Shown: positions 4,659 to 63,304 of the stretch, piece by piece
Layout: each line of letters opens with the position of its first letter
Position numbering within the stretch: position 1 is the first letter of the stretch
Source: an uncultured Mycoplasmatota bacterium
Lineage (GTDB): Bacteria; Bacillota_I; Bacilli_A; RF39; UBA660
Assembly (NCBI GenBank): GCA_946402735.1
Contig: CAMIXH010000001.1
Coordinates: 1 to 64,000, forward strand
DNA length: 64,000 nt
Reading direction: 5' to 3'
Translations under genes and position numbers: made by a program
Notes under the pieces: model-generated
Databases searched by the model: none
What the model saw: the letters and a program-made list of their open reading frames with translations, nothing else
What the model was told of the DNA's origin: nothing

Positions 4659-5306
4659 CTATAGTTTAAGTAATTCTTGCATTTTCTTTACTAATTTTTT
4701 ATTATTCATGAACATAACATATACTATTAACGCCAGTACATCGCCAGTTACTAAATCTATAAATACATGTTGTTTTGTAAATAATGTACTAAACATTATT
4801 AGAACAGACATTATAAATATGAATATTTTAAACTTATTATCTGCTTTTTTAGTTGTACAAACTATTAATATAAATAACATACTTATAGCACAGTGTAAAC
4901 TTGGTAAACAATTAATAGCAGGAGTATCTATCCAATAAATAAAATTTGTTACAAATGTAAGTAATCCAGTTGTTTCAAATTCTGGTCTTATTACTTGTGA
5001 TGGATATATTAGGAATACTACATTAGAAAATAATGTTATAAAGAAGTAATCTATAATATATTTATAGAATTTATTCTTATCTTTTAAATATACATAGTAT
5101 GGTACTGCAAATATAAATATATACCATGAGAAATATGGAATAATGAACCAAACATTAAATGGAATAGCATCATCTATAAAACTACTAAGTATATGTGGCT
5201 CTCCTTGTATTAATTTACTTATAAAAAACATAGCACATTGAATCATAATAAGTACTAATGTTGTTATAAGTGGTTTAAATTCAATTTTTTTAATTAACTT
5301 TTTCAT
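4659..5306 (-). CDS. PAP2 superfamily membrane phosphatase-like protein
   Basis: Multiple TM segments with CLPSLHCAISM and a downstream KQHVFIDLVTGD (PAP2 motifs); start at internal Met preferred. Confidence 0.75.
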   Translation of the reverse strand: MKKLIKKIEFKPLITTLVLIMIQCAMFFISKLIQGEPHILSSFIDDAIPFNVWFIIPYFSWYIFIFAVPYYVYLKDKNKFYKYIIDYFFITLFSNVVFLIYPSQVIRPEFETTGLLTFVTNFIYWIDTPAINCLPSLHCAISMLFILIVCTTKKADNKFKIFIFIMSVLIMFSTLFTKQHVFIDLVTGDVLALIVYVMFMNNKKLVKKMQELLKL

Positions 5307-5406
5307 AAAAATCACGAAGAATATTATACTATAAGATTTCAAATAGTCAAATAGTACTAGAAAAAAATAGCATTTTAATATATAATGTTAGCGAGGTGAA
5401 GGGAGC

Positions 5407-6720
5407 ATGAAAAGAACTATTTGCTTAGTAGGTAGACCAAATACTGGTAAATCTACATTATTTAATAGAATTGTTGGTAAGAGAGTAGCTATTATAGAAG
5501 ATGCTCCAGGAATAACTAGAGATAGAATATATAGTGAAGCTAGTTACAATAATATTCCTTTTTATTTAATTGATACAGGTGGTATTGATTTAAGTGATGG
5601 AGACTTCAATGAAGAAATTCGTATGCAAGTTGAAATCGGTATTGAAGAAAGCGATATTATTGTTTTTGTTGTTGATGGTAAAGATGGTATTACTAATAGT
5701 GATGAATTAATAAGAGATATGTTAAAACGTCAAAATAAGAAAGTAATCGTAGCTATTAACAAGATTGATAATAGTGCTGCTTCAAATAATATGTATGAAT
5801 TCTATTCATTAGGTTTTGATGAATATGTTGGAATATCTGCTGAACATGGAACAGGTGTAAATGAGTTATTAAAACTTATGACAGATGGTTGCGATGAAGG
5901 ATATGAAGATGAAGATGAAAATATTAAAATTGCTGTTATTGGAAGACCTAATGTAGGAAAGAGCAGTCTAGTTAATGCACTTCTAAACGAAGAAAGAGTA
6001 ATTGTTAGTGATGTAGCTGGTACTACAAGAGATGCTATAGATACTAAATTTGTTTATAATAAAGAAGAATATACATTAATAGATACAGCTGGTCTTCGTA
6101 AAAAAGGTAAGATTTTTGAAGCGGTTGAAAAATATAGTTTACTTAGAAGTATGAAAGCTATTGATAGAAGTGATGTATGTTTACTTGTACTTGATGCTAC
6201 TACTGGTATTGTAGAACATGATAAGCATATAGCAGGTTATGCACTTGAAGCAGGTAAACCTACTGTGATAGTTGTAAATAAATGGGATACTATTGAAGAT
6301 AAAGATGAAGATATGAAGAAGTGGAAAAAAGATATAGCGAATAATTTCCAATTCATGGACTTTGCTAAAGTAGTATTCTTAAGTGCACAAACTAAGAAAA
6401 GAATTCATACTTTAATGCCTGAAGTATTAGAGTCATATAATAATTCAATCAAAGAAGTTAAAACAAGTGTTATAAATGATATCATTAGAGATGCATTTAT
6501 GGAAACACCACCAGCTTCATATAAAGGAAAGAAATTAAAAGTATACTTTGCTCATCAAGCTGGTATTAAACCACCAAGATTTGATATAGAAGTTAACTCT
6601 AAAGGATTAGTTCATTTCTCATATTATAGATATTTAGAAAATAAGATAAGAGAAAACATTGATCTTAGTGGTACACCAATAGTAATTCAATTTAAAAATA
6701 AAGGTGAAAAAGAATTATAA
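5407..6720 (+). CDS. der: Ribosome biogenesis GTPase Der (EngA)
   Basis: Two GTPase domains (GRPNTGKSTLFN; GRPNVGKSSLVN) and a C-terminal KH-like domain. Confidence 0.96.
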   Translation: MKRTICLVGRPNTGKSTLFNRIVGKRVAIIEDAPGITRDRIYSEASYNNIPFYLIDTGGIDLSDGDFNEEIRMQVEIGIEESDIIVFVVDGKDGITNSDELIRDMLKRQNKKVIVAINKIDNSAASNNMYEFYSLGFDEYVGISAEHGTGVNELLKLMTDGCDEGYEDEDENIKIAVIGRPNVGKSSLVNALLNEERVIVSDVAGTTRDAIDTKFVYNKEEYTLIDTAGLRKKGKIFEAVEKYSLLRSMKAIDRSDVCLLVLDATTGIVEHDKHIAGYALEAGKPTVIVVNKWDTIEDKDEDMKKWKKDIANNFQFMDFAKVVFLSAQTKKRIHTLMPEVLESYNNSIKEVKTSVINDIIRDAFMETPPASYKGKKLKVYFAHQAGIKPPRFDIEVNSKGLVHFSYYRYLENKIRENIDLSGTPIVIQFKNKGEKEL

Positions 6721-52903: not shown

Positions 52904-54886
52904 ATGAATTTAAGTATAATTTTTTTATTAGTTATATTATCTTTGTTTTTGTTCGGTTTTATATATATAGAACCAATTTTAATGAAACACAAAGTTAAAA
53001 ATGATAATGAGTATGGCTCAGCAAGGTTTAGTACAGATAATGAGATAAAAAAGAATTTTAAAAAAGAAAAAGTAAGTAATATTAAAGAGGCAGGATTTCC
53101 TGTCTCTTTTAGTAAAGATTTGAAGACAATCTATTTTGATAGAGAAACACCTCATTATGTGTATTTAGGTTCAACTGGTTCAGGTAAATCAGTAACTGCT
53201 GTTATACCAACATGTACATTTATTTCAAGTGCAAAGAAAAAAAGGAGTGTTTTTATCACAGATCCAAAAGGTGAAATATATAATGCAACTTCAAAAATGT
53301 TTCAAGATAGAGGATATAAGATTCTCACTATTGATTTTAGACATCCAGAACTATCAAATAAGATTAATATATTAGAGCCAATTATTACTGAATATAAAGA
53401 ATATATGGAATATGAAAGACTAGCTGCTGAATCAAAAGAAGAAAAAGAAAAATTAGAATATAATAATTTATCTATGTCAGCTCTAGCTGAAACAAACAGA
53501 TTAATATCTTCACTAGCTACTATGGTAATGCAAGAAAAACATGAACAGAAAGATCCATTTTGGAATGAATCAGCTAAGAATTTGTTAGAAGGTCTTATTG
53601 GATTTTTTTTAGAAGAATTAAAATTAGGTAATATCAAAGAAGAACAAATTACAATGACTTCAATCAGAAAGTTTCAAAATAGTACAATGGAAACTGCTAA
53701 TAGTAAAAAATTTAAAGATTATATTAATAAGAGAGCATACGGAAGTAAATCTAAAGATGCTTTAGTTAGTATATTAAGTGCAAGTGATAATACTTATAAA
53801 TCTATAACAGCAGTATTTGGTCAAAAGATGAATATATTTGATGATATAAATGTAGCTAATGTTACATGTACTTCTGATTTCAAATTTAATGTTTTAGGAA
53901 GTGAACCTGTTGCATTATATGTTATTGTTCCAGATGAAGATAAGACTTATTTTACATTAGTAACAATTATAGTAGGATTACTATATAGAGATTTGGTAAA
54001 ATTAGCAAATAGTAATGATAACAAAAAATTACCATATGAGATAGATTTTATTTTAGATGAATTTGCAAACTGTCCACCTCTAGCTGATATTGAAGCAATT
54101 GTTTCTGTAGCTAGAAGTAGAGGAATGCATTTTCATTTTTTTATACAATCATTTTCTCAATTAGATAATGTTTATGGAAAAGAAGTTGCTCAAATTATAC
54201 TTGATAATTGTGGCTTAGTTTATTTAAAAACAAATACTCAAGAAACGGCTGAAGCAATATCTAAAAGGTTAGGTAAAAAAACTATTGAATCTAATAGTGT
54301 AAGACAATCGGTTTCTTTATTAAATTATAATGGTGATAGATCTACTAATTTAATTGGTAGAGATTTAATGACTCCAGAAGAAGTGAAACAACTTCATTAC
54401 AAAACAATTATATTTCCAATAATTGGATTTCCTATTTTTAGAGATACTATTTTATATAATAAGTTTTCTTGTTATAAATCTGGAGTAGTTGAAAGAACTA
54501 AGAACCCATTAAAAGATTTATCTAATACTTATTTTGTAGTTGAAAATATTAATCATAAAGTAGTTGAAAAAGGTAAATCTGATCCAAAAGAAATAAAGGA
54601 ATTTTATGAACAAATGGAATTAGATGATAAAGAAAAATTAAAACCAATTGAATTAGTTATTGAAAAAACATTTAAGAAAGATTTTGATATTAAATATAAC
54701 AAAGAAGCTAATCATAGAACACATATGACCGTTACACTTAATAGAAGATTAAAACAAGTAGAAAGATCAATATTACCTAATAAAATAAAAGCCGAACAAT
54801 ATCATATAGAAATAATTGAGAAAGAAGAAAAAACAATAATAAATATTTATAATGAAAAAAATGATTTAGAATTAAATATGAGATGA
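52904..54886 (+). CDS. VirD4/TraG-like type IV coupling protein
   Basis: VYLGSTGSGKSVTAVIPTCTF; LDEFANCPPLADIEAIVSVARSRGMHFHFFIQSFSQLDNVYG. Confidence 0.92.
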   Translation: MNLSIIFLLVILSLFLFGFIYIEPILMKHKVKNDNEYGSARFSTDNEIKKNFKKEKVSNIKEAGFPVSFSKDLKTIYFDRETPHYVYLGSTGSGKSVTAVIPTCTFISSAKKKRSVFITDPKGEIYNATSKMFQDRGYKILTIDFRHPELSNKINILEPIITEYKEYMEYERLAAESKEEKEKLEYNNLSMSALAETNRLISSLATMVMQEKHEQKDPFWNESAKNLLEGLIGFFLEELKLGNIKEEQITMTSIRKFQNSTMETANSKKFKDYINKRAYGSKSKDALVSILSASDNTYKSITAVFGQKMNIFDDINVANVTCTSDFKFNVLGSEPVALYVIVPDEDKTYFTLVTIIVGLLYRDLVKLANSNDNKKLPYEIDFILDEFANCPPLADIEAIVSVARSRGMHFHFFIQSFSQLDNVYGKEVAQIILDNCGLVYLKTNTQETAEAISKRLGKKTIESNSVRQSVSLLNYNGDRSTNLIGRDLMTPEEVKQLHYKTIIFPIIGFPIFRDTILYNKFSCYKSGVVERTKNPLKDLSNTYFVVENINHKVVEKGKSDPKEIKEFYEQMELDDKEKLKPIELVIEKTFKKDFDIKYNKEANHRTHMTVTLNRRLKQVERSILPNKIKAEQYHIEIIEKEEKTIINIYNEKNDLELNMR

Positions 54887-54917
54887 GGATAGTCGATGAG
54901 ATTATCCTCTTTTTTTA
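54885..54917 (+). terminator. Terminator after coupling protein
   Basis: gaggata...tatcctc + T run. Confidence 0.8.
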
Positions 54918-54949
54918 TGTTATAATATATTATGAGAGTAGGTGTTATT

Positions 54950-56416
54950 ATGGCTAAAGGTCCACGATTAAATAATATATCTAGAAATTTTACTACGAGA
55001 GATAGTTTGGGAATAGAAGGCGTAGCTACATCGATATCTGCTGAAATATGTCCAATAGTAAATACAGTTACACCTAGACCATTTTATTGGGCTTTTATTA
55101 CTTGGTGTTATTATGACTTCTATAATAATTGTGAGCCTAAAGATAGAAGCTCTGATAATGTATATAAATATGTTAAAATGCAGAATTATTTTTTAGCATT
55201 AGCCAGTGATATTAATAACACTGATGTTTCAAATGGATTCACAGGTGCAGACACTATTCGTTCGAGAGTAGATTTAAATCAAGATTTATTTTCATATGAT
55301 GATAAGTACTTGGTTACTGTATTAAGTAATATGGGATATTATCCAGCTGGATTATATACAATGGGATTTATTACGGATGTAGATCCTGAAACAATGGATA
55401 AGTTTAAATATCCACATTTAACTCCTGAAGGTAAGAAACTAGCCGAAGCGTTCGATAATATAATTAGTACCACAAGATATTATAAAGAATATAGAAGAAA
55501 AGTTACTGATATACCAAGAGATGTATTAATAGAACTAAATAACCAAATTAATATAAATTTAGATGGTTTTGATGATGTTAAAAAAATTCTTATAGAACAT
55601 TTATTTAATAAAGAGAGTCAAAAAAAATTGATTGAGTCTCATAACTATTTAAAGTTTATTTTTAAAGAATATAAACCTGAGAATATGAATACTGCTAAAT
55701 GTAGAGAATTATTTTACGACTATTTTTCTCCATATTCAGATAATAAGTATAGATATCCTGAAGAGTTAAAAGAAATTATTGATAGTTGGGAAATTGTCGT
55801 AGGAAGACAATATTTTACTTCTGGATTAGAAATGATATGGAAATATATGTTAGAAAACTTAAATAGTCCTAAGCTATATAAAGAATGGTTTAATGATTGT
55901 TTAAATAATTCTAAAATTGATTTTGAATTAACAGATAAACTTAGTTCAATTATTTCTTCATGCAATTATTCGTTTTCCGAAAGGGAAAACATGATAGCAG
56001 ATGCTAGAAGTAGAAGTAGTAATCACGAATTAAATATTGCAAATGGTATTAAGATAATTTTATCTGTATATAATAGATTTTATAATAGAAACGATTTCTC
56101 TAAAGATTGTAAAAATTATTATAATTATGGAATGGATAACAATTCTATTTCACTAAATGAATATTTTAAACTCGTAGAAGAATATAAAGATAAACCAATA
56201 GAAGAATTTATTAAGTATATAATGTATCACTATTTATTAAATCAACATTTGAATACTGCATTTGAAAAAATGTTACAAGGTAGAGATGGATACTATATAG
56301 AAAAAATAGAAAATGAATATTCAAGAAAAGAATATTTTGATTTAGACTTTCAAGGGATTAGAATGGTTCAATTAGCTATGGTAATGCAAGATTTAAATGT
56401 ATTGGAGGTTGAGTAA
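54950..56416 (+). CDS. Uncharacterised protein, possibly DUF6361-like (candidate defence component)
   Basis: GIEGVATSISAEICPIVNTVTPRPFYWAFITWCYYDF...YLLNQHLNTAFEKMLQGRDGYYIEKIENEY; own promoter TATAAT at 54921-54926; start after SD. Confidence 0.6.
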   Translation: MAKGPRLNNISRNFTTRDSLGIEGVATSISAEICPIVNTVTPRPFYWAFITWCYYDFYNNCEPKDRSSDNVYKYVKMQNYFLALASDINNTDVSNGFTGADTIRSRVDLNQDLFSYDDKYLVTVLSNMGYYPAGLYTMGFITDVDPETMDKFKYPHLTPEGKKLAEAFDNIISTTRYYKEYRRKVTDIPRDVLIELNNQININLDGFDDVKKILIEHLFNKESQKKLIESHNYLKFIFKEYKPENMNTAKCRELFYDYFSPYSDNKYRYPEELKEIIDSWEIVVGRQYFTSGLEMIWKYMLENLNSPKLYKEWFNDCLNNSKIDFELTDKLSSIISSCNYSFSERENMIADARSRSSNHELNIANGIKIILSVYNRFYNRNDFSKDCKNYYNYGMDNNSISLNEYFKLVEEYKDKPIEEFIKYIMYHYLLNQHLNTAFEKMLQGRDGYYIEKIENEYSRKEYFDLDFQGIRMVQLAMVMQDLNVLEVE

Positions 56417-56417
56417 T

Positions 56418-58955
56418 ATGTTTGATAGAAGAATAGTGGAAGAAATATCAAATAGTAAAGGTTATTCAATTGCTCTATTAACAACATTTAATTTTGAAAT
56501 TAGCTATTTTGAAAGAGCAGTTTTAAATGCGTTATATGATAAAAATATTAAGAATATTGAATTATTTGTAGATGCAGATGAACTTGAAAAAGCAGTATCA
56601 GAAAGTATAGATAATAATTTAAATAAAAAATATATTGCTAATCCAATTAGAATTAATTCAGCATTTCATCCTAAAGTTGTTTTATTATTTGGAGAAGAAA
56701 AAGCTAAATTAATTGTGGCTAGTGCAAATATTAAAACATCTGGATATACACTTAATAATGAAGTTTATAATGTATTTGAATATAATAAAGATTATCAAGA
56801 TAATTTAAATTTAATTAATGATGCAATTAGTTTCTTTGAAAGATTAAATAGTATGTCTTATTATCAAGATGAAAAGATATTTAATAGAATTAATGATTTG
56901 ATTTATAGACACAGAAGAATAGATAATAATGATGTTAAATTAATTCAAAACTTAGATAAATCAGTTTTAGAGCAATTAAAAGAAATTATTACAGATAAAG
57001 TAGAATCAATTGATATTGCTGTTCCATACTATGACAATGAATTATTAGGATATAAAGATTTATCAGAAACATTTGATTGCAAAAATATTAACTTATATTT
57101 GCAAAACGGATTAAGTACATTCCCAGTAGATTATAATATTAATAATGGGATTGTGAATGCAGATAATATATATACATATTTGAAACTTAAAAGTAATGGT
57201 AAGAAAAACTTTTATCATGGAAAAGTGTTTAGAATTAATACAAATAATAAATCATTCATTCTATATGGTAGTTCTAACTGTACTATGAGTGCTTTATCAA
57301 AAACATATCATAATGGTGGTAATATTGAATGTAATATTCTAGAGGAAGGAATTAAGTCTGATTTTGATTATTTCTTTGATAACTTTGAGATTGAATCATT
57401 TGATGAACTAACTTGCAATATTATTGAATATGAGCCACAGGAAAAGAAAAATTTCAGTTTTAAATATGGGATAAAGAAAGATGAAGTAAAACTATATCTA
57501 TCATACAAAGATAAGAAAGATAATATTAAGATTCAAATAGGAGAAAAAGAATTATCGTATGAATATTATGAAAATGAACTAGTAATATTATTAGATAAAC
57601 TAACATCTGACGAAATTAATAATATTTTTGATTTAAAAATAACAGTTGGAGATAATCAAGAGTTTATTAGGTGTTGGTATTTTGATATTGATACTATAGA
57701 AAATTATAGAAATGCTGAGAGAACATCATCTTTTGAAGATATTAATGTTGATGAAGATATGGAAAAATATCGTGAACATATGGAATTAATTGTAAGAACA
57801 TTAGCTTTAACTAAAGATGAATATTCAGAACAAATGAAGTTACAAAAAATGCTAAATAAAAAATCTAATTTAGAGAATCAAGAAGATTTAGATGAAGATG
57901 AGATAGATGATAACTTTATTATTGATAAAGATATACCAGATGAATATATAAGAAAAAATAAAGATTTTACAAATGCATATATTAAATCTAGATTATTCTC
58001 AGATCGTTTCTTTAAAGGTTTAAAACTAAAAGGAAGTAGTAGTGGTTCTTCTTCAATTCATACAGATAATAAACCAAGTGAAAGTGAAAAAAAGAAAAGA
58101 CCAGCTACACCTGCAGAAAAAAGATTTGAAAGATTTATTAAGAGTAGAGTAAAAGGAATACTTAGAGATGAGTATATAGAACTTGTAGATTATGAACATT
58201 ATAAAAATAGTATTGGAGTTATTCTTGATGTAATTAATGAATACAAATATAAAGAACAAGTTGAAGATATATTTGAAGATAAGTATGTAATAGAAATATC
58301 ATTAGATTTAATTAATAGACTTCTAGAAAAGGAATCAATGAATCATGAACAAGATGAAAAAGATACAACGATTATTCTTACATTTATAGCAGTTATAGAA
58401 AATCATATGTTAAATAATTCTGAAGAAAATAAAGATTATAAAGTTGAGTTGCTAAATAAGGAAATTATAAAACAACTTAATCAATTATTTAATATTAGAG
58501 AGAGTTTTGAAGAATTATTAGAATATGCAGTTAATAATATAAATCAAAAAATTGGAAATATAGATTATGATACTGCTAAAAACTATATTGAATCTTTATT
58601 TGGATATAGAACTAATGAACAATTACTAGATGTTATTAAACATGAATATGGAGAAGATTCTAAAATTGAGATTAACGATAATAATGTTAAAATAGAAACA
58701 TCAACTGATAATATCACTAAATATTTAAAATTAAATGATCTCCCAATTATAGAAATAAGAAAATACTATAAAAACAATAATGCCAGATTAGATAATATAA
58801 ATATAATAATTAAAAATCTAAAAAATGATTATCCAAGTACTGCTGATCCAATAAATATTCTAGAATATATTCTTAATGAAGAAACTAGAAAATATTATCA
58901 AAAAATTACAAGAAAATCCGGAATAGAAGACAAAATAAAAGAAATCAAGATTTAA
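56418..58955 (+). CDS. Phospholipase D-like (HKD-variant) protein, candidate defence nuclease
   Basis: FHPKVVLLFGEEKAKLIVASANIKTSGY and FYHGKVFRINTNNKSFILYGSSNCTMSAL (two HxK...S/GSxN motifs); long acidic/helical C-terminal half; SD ggaggttgag. Confidence 0.75.
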   Translation: MFDRRIVEEISNSKGYSIALLTTFNFEISYFERAVLNALYDKNIKNIELFVDADELEKAVSESIDNNLNKKYIANPIRINSAFHPKVVLLFGEEKAKLIVASANIKTSGYTLNNEVYNVFEYNKDYQDNLNLINDAISFFERLNSMSYYQDEKIFNRINDLIYRHRRIDNNDVKLIQNLDKSVLEQLKEIITDKVESIDIAVPYYDNELLGYKDLSETFDCKNINLYLQNGLSTFPVDYNINNGIVNADNIYTYLKLKSNGKKNFYHGKVFRINTNNKSFILYGSSNCTMSALSKTYHNGGNIECNILEEGIKSDFDYFFDNFEIESFDELTCNIIEYEPQEKKNFSFKYGIKKDEVKLYLSYKDKKDNIKIQIGEKELSYEYYENELVILLDKLTSDEINNIFDLKITVGDNQEFIRCWYFDIDTIENYRNAERTSSFEDINVDEDMEKYREHMELIVRTLALTKDEYSEQMKLQKMLNKKSNLENQEDLDEDEIDDNFIIDKDIPDEYIRKNKDFTNAYIKSRLFSDRFFKGLKLKGSSSGSSSIHTDNKPSESEKKKRPATPAEKRFERFIKSRVKGILRDEYIELVDYEHYKNSIGVILDVINEYKYKEQVEDIFEDKYVIEISLDLINRLLEKESMNHEQDEKDTTIILTFIAVIENHMLNNSEENKDYKVELLNKEIIKQLNQLFNIRESFEELLEYAVNNINQKIGNIDYDTAKNYIESLFGYRTNEQLLDVIKHEYGEDSKIEINDNNVKIETSTDNITKYLKLNDLPIIEIRKYYKNNNARLDNINIIIKNLKNDYPSTADPINILEYILNEETRKYYQKITRKSGIEDKIKEIKI

Positions 58956-58956
58956 T

Positions 58957-58987
58957 AGAAGATAAATAAAATTATCTTCTTTTTTTT
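58957..58987 (+). terminator. Terminator after PLD-like gene
   Basis: agaagataa...ttatcttct + T8. Confidence 0.85.
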
Positions 58988-58990
58988 GTT

Positions 58991-59039: not shown

Positions 59040-59258
59040 ATGATTTCTAAATTAATATATTTATATCACAAGAAAAATAGATATCTTCAATCTTATATAC
59101 AAGATTTAATTGCTGACAAAACTGACTTTGAACCTCATAAAATAAAACTTGAAATATCATCAAAAGAAAATAATTCTCAAGAGTTTAACCACTTTATTTT
59201 TAGCTATAATGGATTGAGATATGATTTACTTGATGATGAATTAAAAATAATAGGATAA
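59040..59258 (+). CDS. Small uncharacterised protein at head of R-M locus
   Basis: 72-aa ORF with SD caggagg, dedicated promoter and terminator (aaagaacaa/ttgttcttt 59257-59280). Confidence 0.55.
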   Translation: MISKLIYLYHKKNRYLQSYIQDLIADKTDFEPHKIKLEISSKENNSQEFNHFIFSYNGLRYDLLDDELKIIG

Positions 59259-59401: not shown

Positions 59402-60199
59402 ATGGGTAGCAATATTTATAGTAGTAAAAATAAGTTGAACGATTTAACTGGTTCTGAATGGAAGTTTTCAACTAAATCAGTTATTAATAAAGCATATCCA
59501 ATAAATATGCAACATAAATTAAGATCTCAACATGGAGGACAAAAACCACCACAATTATGTGAAGATATTATAAAAATCTTTACTAAAAAAGGTATGATAG
59601 TTTTAGATCCATTCATGGGTGTCGGTGGTTCCTTATTAGGAGCTTCATTATGTGATAGAAAGGCTATAGGAATTGATATCACTGAAAAATGGATAGATAT
59701 TTATAAACAAGTATCGGAACTAGAGAAACTAGAAATTCAGCAAACATATTGTGGCGATTCATTTAAAGTTTTGAATAAAATCGAAGATGAAAGTGTTGAT
59801 TTCATTTTAACCGATGTTCCTTATTGGAATATGGATGCATTAGAAAAAACAAGAAACAAAACAGTAAAACAATCTAAACTGAACAATTTTGAAAATAACT
59901 CTGAAGGTCAATCAAAAAAAGATTGGCTAAATAATATGAAAAAGATATTAGGAAAAGCATCTAAAAAACTTAAAAAAGGCAAATATATGGCAGTTTTTAT
60001 AGGAGATATGTATAGAGATAGTGAATATCATTGTTTATCAGGAGAACTTGCATTGAAATTGTCAGAAATTGATGGATTAACAATGAAGGCAAATTTAATT
60101 TGGGAGGATAATAGCAAGTCATTACATGTCTTTGGGTATCCAGCTGCATATGTTCCATCAATGATTCATCAAAATATTTTAATATTTAGGAGGGATTAA
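59402..60199 (+). CDS. DNA N4/N6 methyltransferase with DVPY-type catalytic motif
   Basis: IVLDPFMGVGGSLLGASLCDRKAIGIDI (AdoMet motif) and ILTDVPYWN (motif IV variant). Confidence 0.85.
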   Translation: MGSNIYSSKNKLNDLTGSEWKFSTKSVINKAYPINMQHKLRSQHGGQKPPQLCEDIIKIFTKKGMIVLDPFMGVGGSLLGASLCDRKAIGIDITEKWIDIYKQVSELEKLEIQQTYCGDSFKVLNKIEDESVDFILTDVPYWNMDALEKTRNKTVKQSKLNNFENNSEGQSKKDWLNNMKKILGKASKKLKKGKYMAVFIGDMYRDSEYHCLSGELALKLSEIDGLTMKANLIWEDNSKSLHVFGYPAAYVPSMIHQNILIFRRD

Positions 60200-60200
60200 T

Positions 60201-62000
60201 ATGAGATTAAAAAGCAAATACAATTTCAAAAAATTTGATTTAAATGTTAAAAATAAATTTATTGTATATGGAGATAATCTTGAAGAGTCTACTCAAATTA
60301 TTAAATGGCTTTATGATTTCAATTCCGATAGAATGAAATTTATTGGAATGGAATATGCATCTTTATCTGAATATATATACAAATATTCAATAAATAATGA
60401 AATGTATTATTTTGTAGCAAAAGCATATTATAGAAATGGAAAATTACCTTATGATGTAAGACATGTTATTAAGGAATTAGATAAACCAGATGCAGTTATA
60501 TATTCAGAAGATGATGAAAAAGTTTTAATGGGATTCGAAACTACATCTACTACTATGGCAGGTAATGCAACATGGCAGAGAACAGGAAGAATTATCAATT
60601 TCTTAGAAATGGGAATTCCTTTTGGATTTTTAGCTTATTTTAGCAAAAATGACAAGTCTGATACTAATGTAAATAAAAAGCCGAGAATTCCAGGTGCATT
60701 ATTTGTGCTATTATTTAATTTACTTTCTTTAAAATATCACACACCTGCATTAGTTGGATTCTTTGAACACCCAGATAAAGCACAAAATAGAGATGCACTA
60801 AATCCAAATGATGATTGGAGAGAAGCAATCTTCAAATATTTATTATCATTAATATTAAAAGAAAATGGAGAAGAACACTTAGAAAAATGTTATTCAAATA
60901 TGAAGAATTATTATTTTAGTTCTGACAAAATAAAATCAACATTAAGTGAATTTGGTTCAACAACACTTGATTACATGAAAGATAGTAATTTTTCAAAAAA
61001 TATTATTGATGACATGAAGAATAAGAATAATGTTCCATTTTATGATAAAAGTAAATTATTATTTGATTGGACACCAAAAAAGATTACTGAAAAAGTTCAC
61101 GAACTATTTCCCAATATTAAGTTTTATCAAATATCAAAAAATTGCAAAGCAGGAATAACATTTCAAACAGAAGAATTAATAGATATATTAAATAAAAATA
61201 AAAAGGTATATGTAGAAGATAACTTTAAAAATATACATGCACCTACTGTTGTAATACCAATAAAATTAACAAAACTTGATAATAAGACAGGAAATATTGT
61301 TCCGACAGATGATCCATACAATGGTGAAATTCCAGCTTTTGCAAATCTATATTTACAATCATTTCCTAATGCAAATGTAATGTTATTGTTGTGTGATCAT
61401 ACTAATAAAAATGAATATAATGTTGAAGGAGCTAAAGGAAGAAAAGTATATAAATCAATTGATAAATATGCTGACGTTGTTGCAGATATGGATCTTAATT
61501 TATTTAGTAGAGAATCCGAAGGCTCAAGAATTGAAAACAAGAGTAAATATGAAAATCAATTTACAACAGAAGATGATGTTACTTCTTTCTTTGGAACTGT
61601 TTTATTGAATGAAGGAATTGTTCCATCATTTATTAATCCACCTTGTGGAAGTTGGTCTGATATTCATTTATATCCTACAGATAAATACTATTATTATAAT
61701 AGAAATGATGATAGGGGAGATATTGCATTCTTTGATCCAGATGATGAAACATATTACTTTGGTGAAAGTAAAAAAGACTATAGAACATTAGCATTAACAA
61801 TGGAAGAAGAGTATAGAAAGACAATGAATTTATCGCAAATTGTTTTAAACGAATTGGATAATAAGTATCAAACAAGATTATTTGCAATTTTTAAAGGGAA
61901 TAAAGATGAAGCTAAAAAAGTATTAGATAATTCTAAGTTTGATTTTGTTGTAACAGTAGATGATACTGATGAAGTTACTCTAGAGGTCGTAGAAAGATAA
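60201..62000 (+). CDS. Candidate type II restriction endonuclease (PD-(D/E)xK-like)
   Basis: Between two MTases; DDRGDIAFFDPDDETYYFGESKKDY gives D...ExK near the C terminus. Confidence 0.65.
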   Translation: MRLKSKYNFKKFDLNVKNKFIVYGDNLEESTQIIKWLYDFNSDRMKFIGMEYASLSEYIYKYSINNEMYYFVAKAYYRNGKLPYDVRHVIKELDKPDAVIYSEDDEKVLMGFETTSTTMAGNATWQRTGRIINFLEMGIPFGFLAYFSKNDKSDTNVNKKPRIPGALFVLLFNLLSLKYHTPALVGFFEHPDKAQNRDALNPNDDWREAIFKYLLSLILKENGEEHLEKCYSNMKNYYFSSDKIKSTLSEFGSTTLDYMKDSNFSKNIIDDMKNKNNVPFYDKSKLLFDWTPKKITEKVHELFPNIKFYQISKNCKAGITFQTEELIDILNKNKKVYVEDNFKNIHAPTVVIPIKLTKLDNKTGNIVPTDDPYNGEIPAFANLYLQSFPNANVMLLLCDHTNKNEYNVEGAKGRKVYKSIDKYADVVADMDLNLFSRESEGSRIENKSKYENQFTTEDDVTSFFGTVLLNEGIVPSFINPPCGSWSDIHLYPTDKYYYYNRNDDRGDIAFFDPDDETYYFGESKKDYRTLALTMEEEYRKTMNLSQIVLNELDNKYQTRLFAIFKGNKDEAKKVLDNSKFDFVVTVDDTDEVTLEVVER

Positions 62001-63022
62001 TGAAATATATAGGGAATAAAACCAGAGTTATTGATTTCATAGAGCAATCATTAAAAGATGCTAATATAGACTACTCAAATAAGACAGTTATAGATTTATT
62101 TGCTGGAACAGGAAGTGTTAGTTCATTCTTTTTAGAAAACAAATCAACAGTTTATTCTTGTGATAATATGTTTTACAGTATTTGCGAGCAATATAGAACT
62201 AATTATTATACAGAAGAGCCAACTTTCGAAGAGTTAAAAGAACTTATAGATGATATATCTTTAGATGGAGTCTTAGAATATTTAAATAATGTTAAACCCA
62301 AAAAAGGTTATTTCTTTAATAATTATGCACCAGATGGAAGTGAACATAGACAATATTTTTCAAATGAGAATGCAATGAAATTAGATGCAATTCGAGAAAA
62401 AATTAGCAAATGGGAAAAATTTTTGCCTTATGAAAAAAAATGTTTCTTGCTTGGCATACTAATGTGTGCAGCTGATAGAGTTTCAAACACATCTGGAACA
62501 TACGGAGCATATTTAAAAATATGGAGATCAATGGCTCTTAAGGATTTAATACTAGAAAAGCCAAAGTTTTATAAGCATCAATTTAACTATATCGAATTGG
62601 ATGATGTATTGAATTGTGTTTCCAAACACAAAAATGTAGATATCATATATATGGATCCACCATATAACAAAAGACAATATGCAAGTAATTTTCATGTTTT
62701 AGAAAATATTGTTGTATATGATAAGCAAGAATTGAAAGGCAAAACTGGATTAAGAGAATATACTAATCAAAAATCTGATTATTGCATCAAAAATAAAGTA
62801 AAAAAATCATTTGAAGAATTGGTTAATAACATGGATGCAAATGTTCTTGTAATGAGTTATAGCACCGAAGGGTTGTTATCTGAAAAAGAAATACTAGAAG
62901 TCTTAGAAAAAAAAGGAAAGACAACGGTATATAGATATGATTATAGGCGTTTTAAAACAAATGCTTGGACAGAAGGAAATACGAGTTTACAAGAGTTGTT
63001 ATTTATATGCAAAATAAAATAG
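62000..63022 (+). CDS. D12-class adenine-specific DNA methyltransferase
   Basis: MKYIGNKTRVIDFIEQ...VIDLFAGTGSVSSFFLE...IIYMDPPYNKRQYASNFHVLENI. Confidence 0.92.
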   Translation: MKYIGNKTRVIDFIEQSLKDANIDYSNKTVIDLFAGTGSVSSFFLENKSTVYSCDNMFYSICEQYRTNYYTEEPTFEELKELIDDISLDGVLEYLNNVKPKKGYFFNNYAPDGSEHRQYFSNENAMKLDAIREKISKWEKFLPYEKKCFLLGILMCAADRVSNTSGTYGAYLKIWRSMALKDLILEKPKFYKHQFNYIELDDVLNCVSKHKNVDIIYMDPPYNKRQYASNFHVLENIVVYDKQELKGKTGLREYTNQKSDYCIKNKVKKSFEELVNNMDANVLVMSYSTEGLLSEKEILEVLEKKGKTTVYRYDYRRFKTNAWTEGNTSLQELLFICKIK

Positions 63023-63042
63023 GATTTAATCCTATTTTTTTT
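63016..63042. terminator. Bidirectional terminator between convergent MTase and XRE genes
   Basis: aaaataggat-tta-atcctatttt. Confidence 0.75.
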
Positions 63043-63304
63043 CATCTATCCTAGAATAATTTGTAATATGTTCTTTATTATATGTAAGTAAAAGTGTTGC
63101 TGTAACTTTAGAATTGTGATCAAATTTATTAATATTACTTGCAAATTTATCTACGGTTGCTAAACGAACATTTACCTTTAAATTTTCAATTTGATTTAAA
63201 TACGAAAGTGATGTACCTAGTATCTCTGCAAATTTTTCTTGAGATAAGTTATGCTTCATTCTATAATATCTCAAATTAATAGCTAAAATCTCAATCAATT
63301 TCAT
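63032..63304 (-). CDS. XRE-family HTH regulator (candidate R-M control protein)
   Basis: NLRYYRMKHNLSQEKFAEILGTSLSYLNQIENLKVNVRLATVDKFASNI; SD aaggaggt upstream. Confidence 0.88.
   Translation of the reverse strand: MKLIEILAINLRYYRMKHNLSQEKFAEILGTSLSYLNQIENLKVNVRLATVDKFASNINKFDHNSKVTATLLLTYNKEHITNYSRIDEKK

Follow-up and report, generated by a model that had tools for sequence, protein, structure and literature searches.

DISARM, a defence system with a PLD protein, consists of the DrmA helicase, the DUF1998 protein DrmB, the PLD protein DrmC and a methyltransferase; DrmC is dispensable, and DrmAB has been proposed to recruit PLD nucleases (PMC9142583). BfiI, with the catalytic residues K107, N125 and E136, cleaves DNA without metal via a covalent intermediate (PMC4081073). 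A third system, ZacABC (PADLOC-DB PDLC03828, PDLC03829 and PDLC03830), is represented by authentic ZacB loci that were fetched by PADLOC score (E 1e-117 to 1e-173). In these loci ZacA (392-412 aa), which is DUF6361 by Pfam (3e-67), is followed by ZacB (about 600 aa) and, in four loci, by a protein of 1045-1077 aa that is ZacC according to PADLOC; the two ZacC proteins scanned gave DEAD or ResIII matches together with Helicase_C. The open literature searched yielded no published work on ZacA, ZacB, ZacABC or DUF6361, nor any on the gene pair described here.

The window analysed comprises 64,000 nucleotides (positions 1 to 64,000 of contig CAMIXH010000001.1, assembly GCA_946402735.1, from an uncultured Mycoplasmatota bacterium). 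It carries two co-directional genes, A and B, bracketed by two hairpin terminators (Table 1). A first-pass annotation, made by reading the letters, had described two nearly abutting genes with the A stop at 56416 and the B start codon at 56418, and this arrangement is seen in the ORF list, a single base separating the two. The first product had been called an uncharacterised protein of 489 aa; the description stands but the length does not, as the start at 54950 gives 488 aa. The ORF of gene A spans 54932-56416 and offers ATGs at 54932 and 54950, the latter preceded by AGGTG. The start at 54950 is the likelier one, since this AGGTG lies upstream of it and since the ATG at 54932 would be too close to the TATAAT at 54921-54926 if that -10 were used. 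The hexamer itself had been pointed out earlier and does exist, but a promoter there is unsupported, because it has no -35 match and because promoter-like sites in the region (52) were fewer than in shuffled sequences (63.3 +/- 10.2). The upstream terminator, previously placed at 54885-54917, was recovered as a strong hairpin with its T run; the downstream one, given as a second strong terminator at 58957-58987, is AT-rich but sound. The latter hairpin is too AT-rich to be picked up by the automatic terminator scan.

Table 1. Coordinates of the gene pair, its sequence features and two genes from related elements (window positions unless a locus is named)
Feature	Position	Strand	Evidence or remark
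Intrinsic terminator hairpin, then T7; closes coupling-protein gene, precedes gene A	54885..54909	+	-14.8 kcal/mol, z -5.0; terminator scan
Gene A	54950..56416	+	ORF; 488 aa (494 aa from upstream ATG)
N-terminal DUF6361-like segment of A, residues 12-109	54983..55276	+	hhalign vs ZacA: 94.4%, E 8.6e-8
Gene B	56418..58955	+	ORF; 845 aa, ATG at 56418; PADLOC ZacB match 4.3e-6
First catalytic half-site, H84-x-K86 ... S102-x-N104 ... N113-x-E115	56667..56762	+	28/28 rows of alignment A6, 9/9 of A2
Second catalytic half-site, H267-x-K269 ... G284-S285-x-N287 ... N302-x-E304	57216..57329	+	28/28 rows of A6; A2 invariant except N287, 8/9
AT-rich intrinsic terminator hairpin, then T8; closes operon	58957..58980	+	-8.1 kcal/mol, z -2.9
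CdnG-type CD-NTase (CBASS)	L089 (G004:C6) 4806-5924		downstream of related element's coupling protein
2110-aa protein with SNF2-like motif	L088 5616-11945		G016, directly after related coupling protein

The modelled fold and two HxK half-sites on a single chain place protein B securely in the PLD superfamily, as a predicted nuclease. In the AlphaFold2 model the two-half-site PLD nuclease occupies approximately residues 1-330 and is followed by a short stretch of beta structure (about 380-420), the C-terminal half being helical; the mean pLDDT was 49.6 overall, with confidence fair only to about residue 330 and poor beyond. A fold search with the N-terminal part returned Tdp1 as the best match (E 5e-9), together with polyphosphate kinase and SauUSI; the matches to NucT and NgoAVII were weaker. 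At E 0.1 neither window protein matched Pfam; PLDc_2 was matched by 8 of 9 B relatives (best 5e-13) and NgoFVII by one. The two HxK...SxN motifs that had been read by eye as PLD-type (H84/K86...S102/N104 and H267/K269...S285/N287) are conserved in alignments of 28 B sequences (A6) and of nine B sequences across phyla (A2), and the PLDc_2 matches of the relatives and the Tdp1-like fold of B place them within a PLD fold. From K86 the distance is 18 residues to N104 and 29 to E115, exactly as between the catalytic residues of BfiI. Thus B has the HxK-N-E residues with BfiI spacing in common with BfiI, NgoAVII and SauUSI, the last two being among its fold matches. Unlike these enzymes, however, B has two half-sites per chain, as in Tdp1, and no recognised DNA-recognition domain, and the conserved unit includes no methyltransferase. 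A match of B to the NCBIfam model post_COAP_1 (18.9 bits) was below the cut-off of 40 and was set aside.

Protein A was modelled through a relative, from locus L038, for which 29 sequences were used. The model (mean pLDDT 86.8, pTM 0.86) is nearly all helical and ends in two short strands and two helices with the look of a winged helix; one A relative matched the winged-helix family HTH_45 (8.6e-6). Foldseek with this model gave nothing better than E 0.08 in the PDB and nothing better than 0.5 in the viral library, and the matches were dismissed as chance, so that the fold of the A family as a whole appears, from this model, to be new. The A protein of the window belongs to the family by profile and is 16% identical to the modelled relative.

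Attempts to find relatives with single sequences were insufficient for both proteins, and profiles were needed. PDB sequence searches with window A and window B gave no match, nor did plain searches with window A against plasmids and with window B against phages, and a related-locus search with window B alone found no loci. By tblastn against plasmids, 27 records were obtained with window B, at 21-26% identity among the matches listed. All eight annotated plasmid loci that were inspected (two haloarchaea, Myroides, Prevotella, Polaromonas, Sphingobium, Roseovarius and Streptomyces) encode, immediately upstream of B, a protein without annotation that is about 500-630 aa long; these proteins align as A homologues, and in all eight loci B has kept its HxK and SxN residues. 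When 85,462 species genomes were scanned with three proteobacterial B proteins as seeds, 31 loci were obtained, every one with A or a recognisable remnant of A directly 5' of B. The defects among them are a broken A (L036), a broken B (L039), a deletion chimera (L034) and a pair cut by the contig end (L047). The single A-B ORF of L034 (370-3327) was rejected as a working fusion, since it is what a deletion has left of the pair, with the junction at a PRL stretch common to both proteins. The pair was also present on three IMG/VR contigs (L049, L051 and L052) and in the further genomes G098 and G744, while partial or weak PLD matches (L012-L015 and L063) were left out of the member count. With the window counted, A thus stands directly upstream of B in 45 of the 46 loci with a B homologue, and the co-conservation proposed for the pair is borne out across Halobacteria, Bacteroidota, Pseudomonadota, Actinomycetota and Bacilli. 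The sole exception, the IMG/VR contig L050, carries a truncated B without A. The two genes usually overlap at stop and start by 4 nt, and by up to 23. Full B-profile matches occur in only 2 of 395 genomes of the class to which the window belongs, that of the window and G098, so that the pair is rare there and of patchy distribution. The G098 contig, filed under the same class, is probably contamination, as genes of archaeal type (Mre11/Rad50/HerA-like, by eye) lie on it; its B protein ends in zinc-ribbon-like CxxC motifs.

The first-pass annotation had also likened protein A, by eye, to DUF6361-type proteins, and this resemblance is confirmed, since profile comparison links the A family to ZacA, over about 95 N-terminal residues, and ZacA is called DUF6361 by Pfam. 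The PLD half of B likewise compares with ZacB (98.3%, E 2.4e-14). Judged by these profiles, B is in its PLD part a remote homologue of ZacB, as A is of ZacA over some 95 residues at its start. The direct PADLOC scores of the window proteins were 0.035 for A against ZacA and 4.3e-6 for B against ZacB, where B relatives reached 6e-17 and authentic members lie between 1e-117 and 1e-173. The Pfam DUF6361 model at E 0.1 matched neither window A nor eight of its relatives. The pair and ZacABC share the order A then B, the coupling of the genes and two homologous regions, the N-terminal segment of A and the PLD region in B. They differ in size (A about 490-630 aa against 392-412 for ZacA, B about 790-890 against about 600 for ZacB), the rest of A does not align with DUF6361, and the pair is without the ZacC helicase. 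ZacC (a model of 1019 positions) was not detected at E 1e-10 in the genome of the window, in agreement with the earlier remark that a dedicated helicase is absent, nor in G557, G558, G561 and G744, all of which have the long-form pair; in G560 the match to the model was 60 residues of generic helicase. ZacC is also absent from the flanks of the window pair, where the locus is without a gap, the genome being 85% complete. With neither ZacC nor a full-length DUF6361 protein the pair fails membership of ZacABC, and on these comparisons it may function like ZacABC in part at most.

With DISARM the pair has the PLD-family nuclease in common, and some B relatives match DrmC models weakly, but DrmA and the DUF1998 protein were not among the neighbouring genes scanned around the window pair. 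The comparison with DISARM made in the first-pass annotation holds only as a loose analogy. The PADLOC candidate PDC-M27 also comes close: of nine B relatives, seven matched its PDC-M27B model, at up to 4.5e-8 and more weakly than ZacB. No model of the pair's own exists in Pfam, NCBIfam or PADLOC. The claim of a new module needs qualifying: the pair is not entirely new, the PADLOC candidate ZacABC (DUF6361, PLD and helicase) being distantly related to it.

In the window the pair lies directly after a CD1115-family VirD4-like coupling protein of a conjugative element and is adjoined downstream by R-M genes (59402-63304), as had been read from the sequence. The operon is followed by a small ORF of 72 aa without significant family match (59040-59258), and this in turn by the R-M locus. 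This locus encodes an N4/N6 methyltransferase, a restriction enzyme weakly similar to BsmI and a D12-class methyltransferase, with the gene for a C-protein-like regulator in the opposite orientation. Three genomes (G004, G025 and G036) have the same relaxase (63-66% identity) and coupling protein (75-83%), followed by other genes and not by the pair. A second, more distant element in G004 (coupling protein 62%) has a CBASS cyclase (2.8e-37) about 2.6 kb after the coupling protein. Since different genes follow these related coupling proteins, among them this cyclase and, in G016, a 2110-aa protein with an SNF2-like motif, the site immediately behind the coupling protein is a hot spot for cargo, and at least in part for defence cargo. 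The defence-type setting that had been suggested recurs elsewhere. In Myroides the pair is inside a type I R-M operon, and a survey of 96 flanking proteins from 17 loci, which had no random-locus control, found some that match Gabija GajB (1e-217), Mokosh MkoA/MkoC and DRT-helicase models.

From these observations, made at the level of sequences and models, the pair is likely to be a defence system. It would be a self-contained module without a helicase, carried as cargo of the conjugative element. B would act as a metal- and ATP-independent PLD nuclease in which the two HxK half-sites of one chain form one active site, and may cut DNA with a histidine-DNA intermediate. Produced jointly with B, A would bind invading DNA or a cue of infection by means of its helical body and the winged-helix-like region at its C-terminus, and would license or target B while sparing the host. 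We infer the nuclease activity, the A-B complex, the sensing by A and phage or plasmid DNA as the target; that A is the sensor on the DNA side is a guess, a little better than even. Taken as a whole, a helicase-less defence pair with PLD nuclease B licensed by sensor A is, in our judgement, reasonably probable. The shortness of the segment linking A to ZacA counts against it, as do the helicases near several relatives, since these could supply an ATP-driven partner in trans.

In one rival explanation the pair serves a larger machine as its nuclease, recruiting a host or neighbouring helicase in the manner proposed for DISARM (PMC9142583). Seven loci (L027, L038, L040, L041, L043, L045 and L046) have near the pair a gene for a protein of roughly 1140 aa that combines RNaseH_2 and SF1 helicase domains; in L038 this gene is upstream of A and gene-coupled to it, with a PDDEXK match, whereas in erythrobacteria it is convergent, and SNF2-type genes occur near the pair in other loci. 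ZacC in authentic ZacABC would fit the same scheme. However, no helicase type is constant, many loci including the window have no adjacent helicase, and L024 and L038, though closely related, are unlike in this respect, so that recruitment appears unlikely. An abortive-infection or toxin-antitoxin-like module, in which a non-specific nuclease B attacks host DNA or RNA and A restrains it until infection disturbs the complex, would explain two coupled genes with the nuclease second and the partner always present, and their occurrence on plasmids and a conjugative element. Yet A is large with a winged-helix-like end, unlike a small antitoxin fold, and the ZacA and ZacB relatives accompany a helicase, which better fits DNA targeting; we regard this explanation as improbable. 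A role in DNA repair or element maintenance, with B as a Tdp1-like enzyme clearing proteins from DNA ends to the benefit of the conjugative element, is suggested by Tdp1 as the best structural match and by the adjoining coupling protein. It is very unlikely, though, given that related elements carry other cargo at the same spot, that the pair is found in many places unrelated to transfer genes and that its remote homologues are listed as defence proteins.

The defence reading can be carried further, to a widespread, unnamed two-protein immune system of bacteria and archaea in which A, helical and with a new fold, detects foreign DNA and sets the single-chain PLD nuclease B to work with neither ATP, helicase nor cognate modification enzyme; this we put forward tentatively, at somewhat below an even chance. 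As far as homology goes, the known parts are the remote named relatives ZacA and ZacB, and what is new is the long-form, helicase-less pair; having such relatives, the pair is counted as a variant and not as wholly new. PLD nucleases recur in defence systems, and how the dispensable PLD part of DISARM would be recruited is unknown (PMC9142583). A minimal autonomous pair would be a small set-up for learning how a PLD nuclease is aimed. With the A family, a relative of DUF6361-type proteins now has a structural model. The homologies also join the unnamed pair and ZacABC in one superfamily across bacteria and archaea. If the choice between self and non-self does run without an ATPase and a methylation partner, this would be unusual.
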